A stretch of DNA of 50,457 nucleotides from Actinomycetota bacterium (lineage in GTDB: Bacteria; Actinomycetota; Acidimicrobiia; Spongiisociales; UBA5794). Below the pieces are notes generated by a model, which worked only from the letters and a program-made list of their open reading frames with translations, was not told where the DNA came from and searched no databases. Shown here in pieces: positions 10,262 to 40,429 of the stretch. The stretch is from positions 1-50,457 of the forward strand of contig JAADIG010000154.1 of NCBI GenBank assembly GCA_013151445.1, read 5' to 3'. The translations under genes were made by a program, and so were the position numbers. Numbering within the stretch: position 1 is the first letter of the stretch; each line of letters begins with the position of its first letter.

Positions 10262-10356
10262 TGGCGGAGGTGGACGGGAATCGAACCCGCCAGGCGGCTT
10301 TCGCCCCCTCAACGGTTTTGAAGACCGCGGGACCCACCAGGCATCCTGACACCTCC
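10262..10356 (-). tRNA. selC: tRNA-Sec (anticodon TCA)
   Basis: On the minus strand a 95-base tRNA with CCA encoded (10262-10264). The anticodon loop CTTCAAA puts anticodon TCA at 10319-10321, which reads UGA. The acceptor stem GGAGGTG pairs with CACCTCC. The T arm has GGTTCGATTCC, and a long variable arm GC-GAAA-GC follows the anticodon stem. The size and layout match bacterial selenocysteine tRNA, not a suppressor or serine tRNA. Its presence implies selA, selB, selD and at least one selenoprotein gene elsewhere, none of which is in the window. Confidence 0.94.
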
Positions 10357-23803: not shown

Positions 23804-25822
23804 TTATCCGCTGGCTTTCGGCAGACTCGCCTCAAGAACACGAATCAAGTCGTCTGTGTCCGACACCGGTAGGTCACAAACAAAGTCGTGGCAGAGGAAC
23901 GCTTGTGCCGATTCCGGCGGCGGCGGTCTGTCGGCAAACAGAGGGAGATCGCTGACCGACGAGGATGCTCCGGTCACGATCCATGGTCGAAATCTGCCAA
24001 GAACGGCCGCCACCATCTTGTCGACAGCGTCATCGGTGCCAACAATCGCAAGCTGTGCCGTCTCGTTGCCGAAGCCGATTCCGACCGCAAGCGCCCCCGC
24101 AATGGCGGTGGGATACGATTGCACCATCGGTCCAAGCGATGCCCAGATACCCGACCGTGCCCCGCGGTAACGCTCGTCTCCGGTGAGAGCGTGGGCGATG
24201 GTGAGAGCCTTGAGTGCCAGCGTCTGTGGCGAGGGTGTTGGATTGTCAAAAAGCGGCTTCTGGCGTGTGATCAGTTGCTCGGCATCATGAGCGGTTCGAA
24301 ATACACCGGCGTTTTGATCCGCAAACCGGTCGATAAGATCGTCGACGAGGGTTATGCCTCGCTGGGCATACGTCGGATCGTGGGTCGCAACTCCGAGGCT
24401 GAACAGCCCACAGGCATACGCCCCGTAGTCCTCCGCAAAACCGGGGCCAGACGTTGCATCGGCGCGCCCCGACCGGTGCAGCACGCCGTCCACCATGAGT
24501 TTGCTGGTGATGAACTGGTCGATTTCGCGGGCTGCAGCGATGTAGCGATCTACCCCAAACGCACTACCCACTTCGGCGAGAGCGCTTATCGCCAACCCGT
24601 TCCATTCGGTGACGATCTTGTCATCGACACCCGGGCGGACACGATCGTTGCGGGCGTTGCGGAGTTTTTCCTTCATGTCTTGTACGGCGGCTGGATCCTG
24701 AGCCGGCATCCCGTTGGGTAGGAAGAGATGGTTGGAGCCCTCGAAGTTCCCCCCGGCGGAGACACCGAACCACTCCCCGGCGAGCACGACCTCTTCGGGC
24801 GTGAGCAGTATCTCGAGTTCTTCCATTGTCCACACCGCAAACTTGCCTTCGATGCCCTCGGCATCTGCGTCCTCGGAGGACCACAGGGCACCCTGGCTGT
24901 CCCGTAGGTCGTTCAGCAGATAGTCGAGCGTTTCGCAGGCAACCCGACGGAAGGTGTTGTCGCCGGTGATCTGCCAGCCACGCAGATACGCCGTCGCCAG
25001 TAGGGCGTTGTCGTAGAGCATCTTTTCGAAGTGGGGGATGAGCCACTTCTCATCAACCGAGTAGCGCGCAAAACCGCCGTCAATATGGTCGTAGATGCCG
25101 CCAGCCGCCATTGCATGCAGGCTGGTCGAGAGCATGTGGGTTGCCTGGTCACCAATCTCGTCTGTGTGTCTGGATGCGATTGCAGCCAGGAGTTCGAGAA
25201 GTGGTGCCTGGGGAAACTTCGGTGCATGACCAAACCCCCCGTGGACCGTGTCGAATTGGGATGTGAGGGCGCGCATGGCGTGCTCTGCGCTCTCGGCGTT
25301 CACTGTGAAGGGCTCGGTAGGTGTCGCCACCCGGAGTGACTTGACGAGTCTCTCTGCCCGGTCGAATACGCTGGTGCGATCGTCGACCCACAGACGATGA
25401 ATCGAGTCGAGGACCCTCATGAACGACGGATGTCCGTGGCGGTCGGTGGGTGGGAAATACGTCCCGGCGAAGAACGGTCGGCCCTCCGAATCAAGAAACG
25501 CGGTCAGCGGCCATCCTCCCTGCCCCCGCATTGCCTGCAACGCCTCCATGTAGATGCCGTCAATGTCGGGACGTTCCTCTCGGTCGACCTTGATACTCAC
25601 GAAATGTTCGTTCATGAAACGTGCCGTTGTGTCGTCTTCGAAACTCTCGTGCGCCATGACGTGGCACCAATGACAGGCCGCATACCCAATTGACAGGAGG
25701 ATGGGGACATCGCGTTCTCGTGCGAGCGCAAACGCGTCGGGCCCCCACTCGAACCAATCGACGGGATTGTCGGCATGTTGGCGGAGGTACGGCGAGGTTG
25801 CGTTCACGAGGCGATTTGGCAT
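23804..25822 (-). CDS. YyaL/SSP411-family thioredoxin-domain protein (DUF255)
   Basis: A 672-residue protein. Residues 5-170 are the DUF255 thioredoxin-like domain with C50-H-W-C53 ([15 protein letters not shown]) and [24 protein letters not shown] follows. The remainder is an alpha/alpha-barrel of the six-hairpin type, seen in [12 protein letters not shown] and SSEDADAEG. The family is found in all domains and is often annotated as a spermatogenesis-associated or cellobiose-epimerase-like protein; the reaction is unproven. ATG 25822 is preferred over GTG 25831. The LCP cluster begins 28 bases after its stop on the same strand, so it may be the first gene of that operon. Confidence 0.93.
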
Positions 25823-25874
25823 GGGACCCACGGTACCCGAGTGGTTACGGGCTCATGGCGTTCGTTGGCGAAAC

Positions 25875-26012
25875 CTATCCACAACTCCGACTCAACCCCG
25901 GTATGCCCTGTGGATAACCGTTGCTTCCGATGTCAATGGTTGGCTGGTCGCACGGTCCCGCGCTGCCGGCAACCATGGCCCTGTGGATAGGTAGTTGACC
26001 TGTTGTGGATAA
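25875..26012. promoter_or_regulatory. Cluster of four DnaA-box-like 9-mers
   Basis: TTATCCACA or its one-mismatch form CTATCCACA occurs at 25875-25883 (plus strand, 8/9), 25909-25917 (minus, 9/9), 25982-25990 (minus, 8/9) and 26004-26012 (minus, 9/9). Four such sites in 138 bases of non-coding DNA are far above chance. The sequence fits a DnaA-binding cluster: a replication-linked element, a DnaA-titration site, or DnaA control of the sigma gene. There is no AT-rich unwinding element, and neither dnaA nor dnaN is present, so oriC is not claimed. Confidence 0.6.
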
Positions 26013-26039
26013 TTTGAGGCCCGAACACCTAGAAAGGGG

Positions 26040-26103
26040 TTCACAAAACCCACAGATTGTGAAATAGTGGTGACGAACAGGCGCTTGTGAACAAATTCAC
26101 AAG
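26040..26103. promoter_or_regulatory. Four TTGTGAA/TTCACAA heptamers before the sigma gene
   Basis: TTCACAA at 26040-26046, TTGTGAA at 26057-26063, TTGTGAA at 26085-26091 and TTCACAA at 26096-26102. The last two form a perfect 20-base inverted repeat (26084-26103), CTTGTGAA-CAAA-TTCACAAG. It lies about 70 bases before the sigma gene start. A dimeric regulator operator is the simplest reading; the protein is unknown. Confidence 0.55.
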
Positions 26104-26171
26104 CTCCGGTCTGTCTTGGGGTGACAAGACTGACCGTTGGCGTAACCCCCCTCTGCGTTGGAGGCAACTCT

Positions 26172-27221
<1,050 letters not shown>

Positions 27222-38410: not shown

Positions 38411-40429
38411 CTACTCGTCGTCGGGACCCTCTTCGGACTGATTAAAGATCCAGGCGAGTTCTTCCCGGGACTCTCCGGTCCCGAACGCGGTGACAACATC
38501 ACCCGCACGCAGCGTCGTGTCACCATGGGGGATGATTACCGCCGAACCACGTCTGATCGATACGAGTGTCGCGGCATCGGGCCAACGGATGTCGCGAACG
38601 GTTTGTGCCGCACAGGTACTGTCGGAGGGGATTGGGATCTCATAGAACGATGCTCCGGGCTGAGTCCGCTGTTTAACCCGATCGCGGTACATATGCCGCC
38701 CCGTGCTGTCCGATAGTGCCCGGTGATACGCCCGCACGACACTCTCGCGGCGAAACATCCCGACGTGGGTCGTGCGGTCATCATCGGAAACTACCGGGAG
38801 CCGACCGTAGTTGAGCGCCGCCATTCGTGCGAGCGCCGCCGAGACCGGCATGCTGGGCACCACGGTGATCGGCTTTTCGGTCATGAGGTCTCTCACCTGG
38901 ACTGCGCTGAGATCATCGGAACAGTTGGCTATGTCGGTCAGCGTCAGGATGCCGATAAGCTTTCCCCCCGCAACGACCGGGAGTCCGTGGTGACGTCCCT
39001 CGGTGATGTAGTCGAGGGCTGCCTGGCCGGTCATCGTCGGTGCCAAGATTCCCGGATAGCTCATGACCTCGCCGACGGTGACCGTGTCGAGAAGATCGAT
39101 GTCTTCTGGTTTCTGGAGATGGATGCCCTTGAGGGTAAGCGGCATTGTGTAAGCGCTGTCGGGGTCGAAATAGTCTGCAATAACCATGGCTAGCGTCGTT
39201 GCAAGCATCAGTGGAACAACGAGACCGTAGTCACCGGTGATTTCAAACACGATGATGATCGCAGTGAGTGGGGCGCGGGCCACCGCGGCGAAGGTTGCTG
39301 CCATGCCGACGACGGCGAAGGCTCCGGGGACGGGTGTTGCGAGTGGCCACACGAACGTGACGACCGTGGCAAACGCCGCCCCGAGCGCTGCTCCCGCAAA
39401 TAGGCTGGGCATGAATACCCCACCAGCACCGTAACCACCCTCGGTCACTGCGGCCATGGCGAGTTTGAGGACTCCGAGGAAGAGAAGCGTCACCCAGACG
39501 AGGTTGGCGGTCGAGTCAAGGCTCAACATCGACTCAACGACGACCCGACCAGTACCCAACACCTCGGGACGGACTGCGCTGACGCCAGCGATGATAAGTC
39601 CTGCGACCAGGGGACGTACGATCTGTGGGAGCCTCTTCGACACACGGACGGTGTGTGCCAATTTCAGCATCTTGATGAACAAAACACCAAGCGAACCAGC
39701 GAGTAAACCGAGGACGAGGTACAGCAGCAGTTCCGGTGCGTTCTGAAGTTCGTGCGCCGGTGCCGACAGCAGCTTGTCGTCGCCGAGCAGCGATTTTGCG
39801 GTCACCGCCGCGGAGACGGCGGCGATGACGACGGCGTTGATGTGCCTGATTGCAAAGTTGCCGAGCACTACCTCCATAGCGAACAACATGCCGGCGATTG
39901 GGGCGTTGAATGAGGCACCAATGCCGGCTCCGGCTCCGGCGGCCACGAGACTCCGGATGCGGTCCTCACCGAAGTTGGTGTACCGGGCCAACGACGAGCC
40001 AATGGCGGAACCCACCTGTACCGCGGGACCCTCTGAACCGAGCGATCCACCCGATCCCACCGTTGCCATTGTCGCGACGAGTTTCGTTTGCACGGTCCGC
40101 GTTGGAATGTATCCGGAGTGCAGGTTGAGCCCGACCATGGTTTCGGTGATGCCGCTGCCCTTGATACCCGGGCCCCATCGTCGCTCTATGAACCACGAGA
40201 TCCCTATTCCAATGGGCGTGATAATGGCAACAAAAAGCAAACCGTAGCTCAGTGACCTGAGGTTAAAGAGACGCTCATCCGCCCACTCGATGGTAAGGAT
40301 GAGAGCGCTGCTGGTGAGGCCGACGAGGACGCCAACGACCGCAGCGGCAAGGAGAAATCCTGCCGATCCTCTGGTCTGTCCAAGCTTTGCGGACAGCGCC
40401 TTACGCAGGGTCGTTCGTTGCATGACCAT
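38411..40429 (-). CDS. ClC-family chloride channel/antiporter with CBS and RCK_C domains
   Basis: A 672-residue protein. The membrane part (about 20-430) carries the ClC ion-path motifs GSGGSLGSEGPAVQ (the gating glutamate is in GSEGP), and GGVFMPSLFAGAALG. A tandem CBS pair (about 450-575) follows, with VMSYPGILAP and LMTEKPITVVPSMP. The last 75 residues resemble the TrkA-C (RCK_C) ligand-binding domain (VVTAFGTGESREELAWIF). The domain order suggests gating by a nucleotide or other ligand. The start is ATG 40429, or ATG 40423. It lies upstream of nrtR on the same strand. Confidence 0.93.
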   Translation of the reverse strand: MVMQRTTLRKALSAKLGQTRGSAGFLLAAAVVGVLVGLTSSALILTIEWADERLFNLRSLSYGLLFVAIITPIGIGISWFIERRWGPGIKGSGITETMVGLNLHSGYIPTRTVQTKLVATMATVGSGGSLGSEGPAVQVGSAIGSSLARYTNFGEDRIRSLVAAGAGAGIGASFNAPIAGMLFAMEVVLGNFAIRHINAVVIAAVSAAVTAKSLLGDDKLLSAPAHELQNAPELLLYLVLGLLAGSLGVLFIKMLKLAHTVRVSKRLPQIVRPLVAGLIIAGVSAVRPEVLGTGRVVVESMLSLDSTANLVWVTLLFLGVLKLAMAAVTEGGYGAGGVFMPSLFAGAALGAAFATVVTFVWPLATPVPGAFAVVGMAATFAAVARAPLTAIIIVFEITGDYGLVVPLMLATTLAMVIADYFDPDSAYTMPLTLKGIHLQKPEDIDLLDTVTVGEVMSYPGILAPTMTGQAALDYITEGRHHGLPVVAGGKLIGILTLTDIANCSDDLSAVQVRDLMTEKPITVVPSMPVSAALARMAALNYGRLPVVSDDDRTTHVGMFRRESVVRAYHRALSDSTGRHMYRDRVKQRTQPGASFYEIPIPSDSTCAAQTVRDIRWPDAATLVSIRRGSAVIIPHGDTTLRAGDVVTAFGTGESREELAWIFNQSEEGPDDE

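Follow-up and report, generated by a model that had tools for sequence, protein, structure and literature searches.

A conserved promoter and a putative Rex operator upstream of a non-primary sigma-70 gene in an actinobacterial order

A sigma-70 gene and its upstream region

The stretch of DNA analysed here, hereafter the window, is the 50,457-nucleotide contig C135 of a 3.07 Mb genome in 159 contigs, which homologues and the presence of a WhiB gene assign to the Actinomycetota. It carries a sigma-70 family gene (Table 1) whose product matches the Pfam models for Sigma70 regions 1.2, 2, 3 and 4, all above cut-off, as found for non-primary sigma-70 factors that retain regions 1.2 to 4. The gene probably begins at the GTG at 26172 rather than at 26121, since a GGAGG sequence at 26160 precedes this codon and the position agrees with the GTG or ATG starts of relatives. 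Identity of the window sigma to the 13 other orthologues compared was 85.5-97.7% over the matched length. The gene had also been described as encoding a housekeeping sigma factor; its TIGR02393 score of 290.1, however, lies below the curated RpoD cut-off of 354. A paralog on contig C70 scores 369.8, above that cut-off, and sits just downstream of a gene that reads as dnaG. On these scores the primary sigma factor, RpoD, is the dnaG-linked paralog, and the window sigma is not the housekeeping factor.

The sigma gene shares its intergenic region with a divergent thioredoxin-fold gene, whose start we place by inspection at the ATG at 25823 (the open reading frame list has a GTG at 25831). A similar gene is a recurrent neighbour of the sigma gene, appearing in 28 of the 85 other upstream regions described below. 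A strong second hairpin is present in the sigma leader at 26108-26135, directly after the palindrome listed in Table 1. Elsewhere in the window, a selenocysteine tRNA gene (10262-10356, minus strand; Rfam, ARAGORN) has a response regulator, a histidine kinase and an HTH gene as neighbours. If the promoter and Rex explanation set out below is taken as a whole, region 25875-26102 is likely to be the regulatory region of this conserved, non-primary sigma-70 gene.

Table 1. Features of the sigma-70 locus, in window coordinates, and exact Rex-type sites found in the genome
Feature	Position	Strand	Basis or remark
Divergent thioredoxin-fold gene (DUF255/Thioredox_DsbH)	23804-25823	-	profile matches; shares intergenic region with sigma gene
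Box 1, DnaA-box-like, CTATCCACA	25875-25883	+	motif search
Box 2, perfect DnaA box, TTATCCACA	25909-25917	-	motif search
Box 3, DnaA-box-like, CTATCCACA	25982-25990	-	motif search
Box 4, perfect DnaA box, TTATCCACA	26004-26012	-	motif search
-35 element TTCACA, GGGG before it	26040-26045	+	comparison; part of heptamer 1 (TTCACAA, 26040-26046)
Extended -10, TGA + AATAGT (26063-26068), 17 bp after -35	26060-26068	+	overlaps heptamer 2 (26057-26063)
Predicted transcription start	26075-26076	+	inferred from distance to -10
Rex-operator-type palindrome, TTGTGAACAAATTCACAA	26085-26102		heptamers 3 and 4; about +10 to +28 from predicted start
Shine-Dalgarno GGAGG	26160-26164	+	sequence, compared with relatives
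Sigma-70 family gene, non-primary, 349 aa, GTG start	26172-27221	+	Pfam Sigma70 r1.2, r2, r3, r4
Exact site at start of rex			TTGTGAN6TCACAA search of genome
Exact site before ATP synthase genes (F0F1-ATPase gene PF09527, then ATP-synt_A)			TTGTGAN6TCACAA search of genome
Exact site before gene with weak cytochrome c7/c3 matches			TTGTGAN6TCACAA search of genome
Exact site before gene for 237-aa membrane protein without family			TTGTGAN6TCACAA search of genome
Exact site before window sigma gene			TTGTGAN6TCACAA search of genome

A core promoter shared by seven families

Four TTGTGAA heptamers begin at 26040 (minus strand), 26057 (plus), 26085 (plus) and 26096 (minus). This is the cluster of four in 64 bases to which the original prediction had drawn attention, and indeed 300 dinucleotide-preserving shuffles of the window never gave more than two in such a span. 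It is the clustering alone that is unusual: the window as a whole holds five copies against 4.3 expected, and hence no over-representation. The four had also been treated as equivalent, a view that did not survive comparison with relatives. For this comparison we drew on 99 genomes, including that of the window. In 85 of them, spread over eight families (f1 to f8), the region upstream of the orthologous sigma gene was usable, giving 86 rows since G021 is represented twice. The other 14 genomes were dropped for want of a full match, because of a contig edge (G083, for example, offers only 141 bp, L203), or because the region was not fetched.

A promoter is recognisable in 77 of these 86 upstream regions across the order. 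All seven bases of a TTCACAA at the -35 position are kept in 69 of the 77 aligned promoters, and GGG stands ahead of it in 68; the spacer measures 17 bp in 74 and 16 bp in the other three; and a TGN triplet precedes the -10 hexamer, mostly NATAKT, in 74. By family the promoter was found in 40/41 regions of f1, where the single exception is the second copy in G021, and in 8/8 of f2, 5/5 each of f3, f4 and f5, and 7/7 each of f7 and f8. None of the eight f6 upstream regions has it; sigma genes of this family have longer open frames, so that their promoter may be located at a greater distance. Because the alignment sets the -35 and -10 hexamers at the positions given in Table 1, heptamers 1 and 2 are elements of this order-wide promoter, namely its -35 and its extended -10. 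Other copies of the promoter pattern, GGGTTCACA-N12-TRTGWNATAKT, with fewer than two mismatches were absent from the genome, and with no other near match there we saw no regulon that shares the sigma promoter. Similarly, GGGTTCACA followed by a suitable -10 was absent from 80 more distant sigma homologues (first 3.1 kb scanned). A promoter with a 17-bp spacer that is kept over seven families is also a useful anchor when promoters are to be predicted in these bacteria, most of which are uncultured.

A cluster of DnaA-like boxes upstream of the promoter

The four DnaA-like boxes that the original prediction had reported within 138 bases are present (Table 1), and their density withstands a shuffling control, in that 300 dinucleotide-preserving shuffles of the window never placed more than one YTATCCACA in such a span. 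Across the genome the exact motif occurs 24 times, with no excess over the reversed control (31). Four of the 24 nevertheless fall in this cluster, the densest such group in the genome, the next closest pair being 1.6 kb apart, and two of the genome's seven perfect DnaA boxes are among them. Several consensus boxes are thus packed into a short stretch, as in a DnaA-binding cluster. Boxes of the same kind occupy the gap between dnaA and dnaN on contig C149, where a dnaA-dnaN-recF locus is found (dnaA by family search, dnaN and recF recognised from their translations): one perfect TTATCCACA and three one-mismatch variants, at 40396, 40437, 40468 and 40503.

Conservation, which had been proposed as a check on the boxes, tells a different story. 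The congener G001 has no boxes upstream of the sigma promoter although its sigma is 97.7% identical, and 72 of the 76 relatives with the promoter have no box within 250 bp upstream of it. In the other four that interval contains one box or two, of the broader type YTRTCCACA, against a mean of 0.34 boxed relatives in a shuffle control that reached four in 0 of 500 trials, and box types and positions vary among the relatives that have them. Because the congener has no boxes, yet 4/76 relatives exceed the shuffled expectation, a link to DnaA is possible and lineage-specific; the boxes may bind DnaA as an additional feature of this lineage. E. coli likewise has DnaA titration clusters outside oriC, with several consensus boxes close together away from dnaA-dnaN (PMC12371093), whereas the boxes here are not conserved in a congener. 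Given this balance, a DnaA-binding cluster that titrates DnaA, or that controls the sigma gene or its divergent neighbour, is a tentative proposal that we regard as somewhat less than an even prospect; it would be compatible with control of the sigma gene by Rex.

A Rex-type palindrome near the predicted start

Heptamers 3 and 4 together make up an exact TTGTGAA-N4-TTCACAA palindrome, the type of sequence expected of an operator for Rex, a repressor that senses NADH/NAD+. The same arrangement is given as the Rex consensus in Streptomyces avermitilis (PMC5355995), and that of Staphylococcus aureus is TTGTGAAW4TTCACAA (PMC2883068). If up to one mismatch is allowed, 17 of the aligned promoters have an operator: 12/40 in f1, 5/7 in f8 and none of the 30 from f2 to f5 and f7. 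It is lacking in 60 of the 77, though rex was found in 87 of the 99 genomes. Wherever it occurs its position is nearly fixed, in both families: it begins 43-46 bases from the start of the -35 in all 17 cases (45 bases in 12), just downstream of the predicted transcription start. When a 180-base piece was taken from each upstream region and its mononucleotides were shuffled, the mean number of operators was 0.0. The changes tolerated in these sites, for example a TTCACGA right arm, recur in validated S. avermitilis operators described in PMC5355995. A 50-row sigma tree groups f1, f7 and f8 in a single clade (97/83). On that tree the distribution of the operator requires five changes, whereas each of 500 label shuffles required more; these five changes fit one gain followed by losses and repeated gains alike. 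One of the genomes with the operator, G018, is 56% complete, and rex was undetected in it.

The genome itself encodes a Rex repressor. Its one rex gene scores 281.5 against the cut-off of 226 for the NCBIfam equivalog model, and the protein aligns with solved Rex structures (3ikv, E 9e-43). A genome-wide search for TTGTGAN6TCACAA returned five exact sites (Table 1), in four of which both arms are TTGTGAA/TTCACAA, as Rex prefers. Known Rex targets thus bear a site in the same genome, at rex and atp and, with one mismatch, at a WhiB-family gene. The last of these sites, G000:C24:6371 (L171), parallels wblE of Streptomyces. Ten relatives were selected for having the operator upstream of the sigma gene. 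Their genomes contain 35 exact sites against 0 for the reversed pattern, and these again precede the ATPase gene, rex and the gene for the same membrane protein; the ATPase candidates matched PF09527 in 5 of 5 scanned, and further ones were recognised by eye. At rex itself, an operator with two mismatches or fewer was lacking in six of the eight loci retrieved from relatives. A membrane-like protein of 233-251 aa lies directly downstream of exact Rex-type sites in seven genomes (G000:C3:31580 (L167), L210, L227, L248, L251, L256 and L257). Two copies were scanned, and neither matched a Pfam or NCBIfam family; the protein is predicted to be a candidate new Rex target.

Exact sites were also compared with the presence of rex, in a table of 28 further genomes, G000 and the ten operator-bearing relatives. 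Of the 34 genomes with rex, 31 have exact sites and three have none, against 0 of 5 without it (Fisher p 1e-4, a value that is overstated because eleven genomes were picked for the operator and the five rex-less ones, 78-94% complete, all come from genus g7). Omitting the eleven leaves 20/23 against 0/5, and since all five rex-less genomes come from one genus the association is not phylogenetically independent. Within g7, rex was not found in five of seven genomes (G008, G033, G044, G046 and G048), from which exact sites are absent too; loss of rex or missing contigs are both possible.

These data bear on other readings of the heptamers. TGTGA-N6-TCACA is also a CRP-type consensus, and the palindrome fits it because it overlaps the Rex consensus, so that a CRP/GlxR-type regulator might bind there instead. 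We consider this unlikely: sites stand at rex and atp, which are Rex targets elsewhere, exact sites are found in none of the five rex-less genomes, and four of the five exact genomic sites have the full arms preferred by Rex. Indeed, it is because the rex and atp sites were found that we favour Rex over our initial idea of CRP. The second dimeric regulator that the original prediction had suggested is, judging from the palindrome of heptamers 3 and 4, very likely Rex.

The -35 TTCACAA could in principle also be a regulator site in its own right, such as a Rex half-site, as it is kept at all seven bases more faithfully than a -35 role needs and S. avermitilis Rex is described as able to bind half-sites (PMC5355995). 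It is, however, always 16-17 bp from a -10-like hexamer, and it is intact in genomes without detected rex (G008, G033 and G046) and is therefore independent of Rex, which makes a regulatory role beyond the -35 improbable. An RNA hairpin in the leader, rather than a DNA operator, is more improbable still. The palindrome does fold as a hairpin in the window leader, but among the 17 sites two-sided compensatory changes were seen at none of the pairs within the 18-mer, 10 of the 17 have a broken pair beside the loop whereas the TGTGA/TCACA cores hardly vary, and the same palindrome stands at genes with different leaders; for lack of compensatory changes we rejected it. A displaced or second replication origin, suggested by the box cluster itself, is scarcely credible and was rejected, as C149 carries the dnaA-dnaN-recF locus together with DnaA boxes of its own, the GC skew shows no switch through the site or in the window, and the boxes are neither conserved nor set, by eye, in AT-rich sequence, leaving the features of an oriC absent here.

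Palindromes at paralogous sigma genes

Rex-type palindromes also precede sigma genes of a paralogous clade, most of whose members share 53-60% identity with the window sigma (G042, at 47%, is weakly placed). The regions were taken from among the matches listed (L285-L304, L305-L342). In the first 20 the palindrome was exact in six (G042, G055, G062, G075, G093 and G097), had one mismatch in seven and two in five, and was absent from two. In 20 further regions three had one mismatch and five had two near the gene, and ten had none near it; G082 and G087 each have an exact site some 600 bases ahead of the conserved block. Two added regions (G051, G085) had no palindrome. All five fetched members of the clade from f7 carry the exact operator. 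A two-mismatch palindrome, on the other hand, precedes the paralog in all four rex-less g7 genomes examined (G008, G044, G046 and G048), and therefore not every such palindrome is a Rex site. Owing to this persistence, and because in much of f1 the paralog palindrome overlaps the apparent ribosome-binding site, only the exact sites of f7 and G042 are good Rex candidates.

These patterns suggest that a Rex circuit may have shifted between sigma paralogs. A lasting, order-wide circuit from Rex to a sigma-70 gene, with the operator at different paralogs by lineage (at the window sigma in 12 f1 and five f8 genomes, exact at the paralog in f7, and degenerate there in much of f1), is a possibility that we advance with some reserve. 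If it is true, a global redox sensor would directly choose which sigma factor is made.

Discussion

We propose that the conserved promoter and the putative Rex operator control the sigma gene as a redox switch, an arrangement that we regard as probable. A sigma-70-type promoter (-35 TTCACA, 17 bp, TGn-NATAKT) would fire the sigma gene, and Rex would bind at 26085-26102, just downstream of the expected start, blocking RNA polymerase when NAD+ is plentiful. As NADH accumulates, Rex would be released and the sigma factor made. Since the sigma factor would be made once Rex releases at high NADH, the redox state would alter promoter selection through it, at whatever genes this sigma may transcribe. 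Repression in this direction would agree with S. avermitilis, where repression by Rex is reported to involve binding within promoters or just downstream of them, and where NADH lowers its DNA binding (PMC5355995).

The comparison with Streptomyces extends further. Its Rex regulon (rex-hem, cyd, nuo, atp and wblE) is described with the same operator consensus as here, and the S. avermitilis targets rex, atp and the WhiB-like wblE have counterparts that bear the operator here too. The operator of cydA1, with a Rex footprint from -3 to +25, lies just downstream of the start, like the present operator relative to its predicted start (all PMC5355995). What differs is the target, a sigma-70 gene: the Rex targets named in the portions of the S. 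avermitilis report drawn on here include no sigma gene (PMC5355995). The S. aureus operator TTGTGAAW4TTCACAA is likewise of the type found here, and there the targets described are anaerobically induced genes, unlike the sigma gene (PMC2883068). Our search of the open-licence literature returned no report of Rex controlling a sigma gene or of Rex in Acidimicrobiia, an absence that is weak evidence. The operator would be of a known kind and its target of a kind not found reported in open-licence papers, in addition to an unusually conserved promoter.

Rex has been known chiefly for regulating genes of respiration and fermentation. If the proposal is true, direct control of a sigma factor would let Rex switch entire transcription programmes in an actinobacterial order that has been little studied, and the transcription programme of the cell may follow its energy state, that is, its NADH/NAD+ balance.
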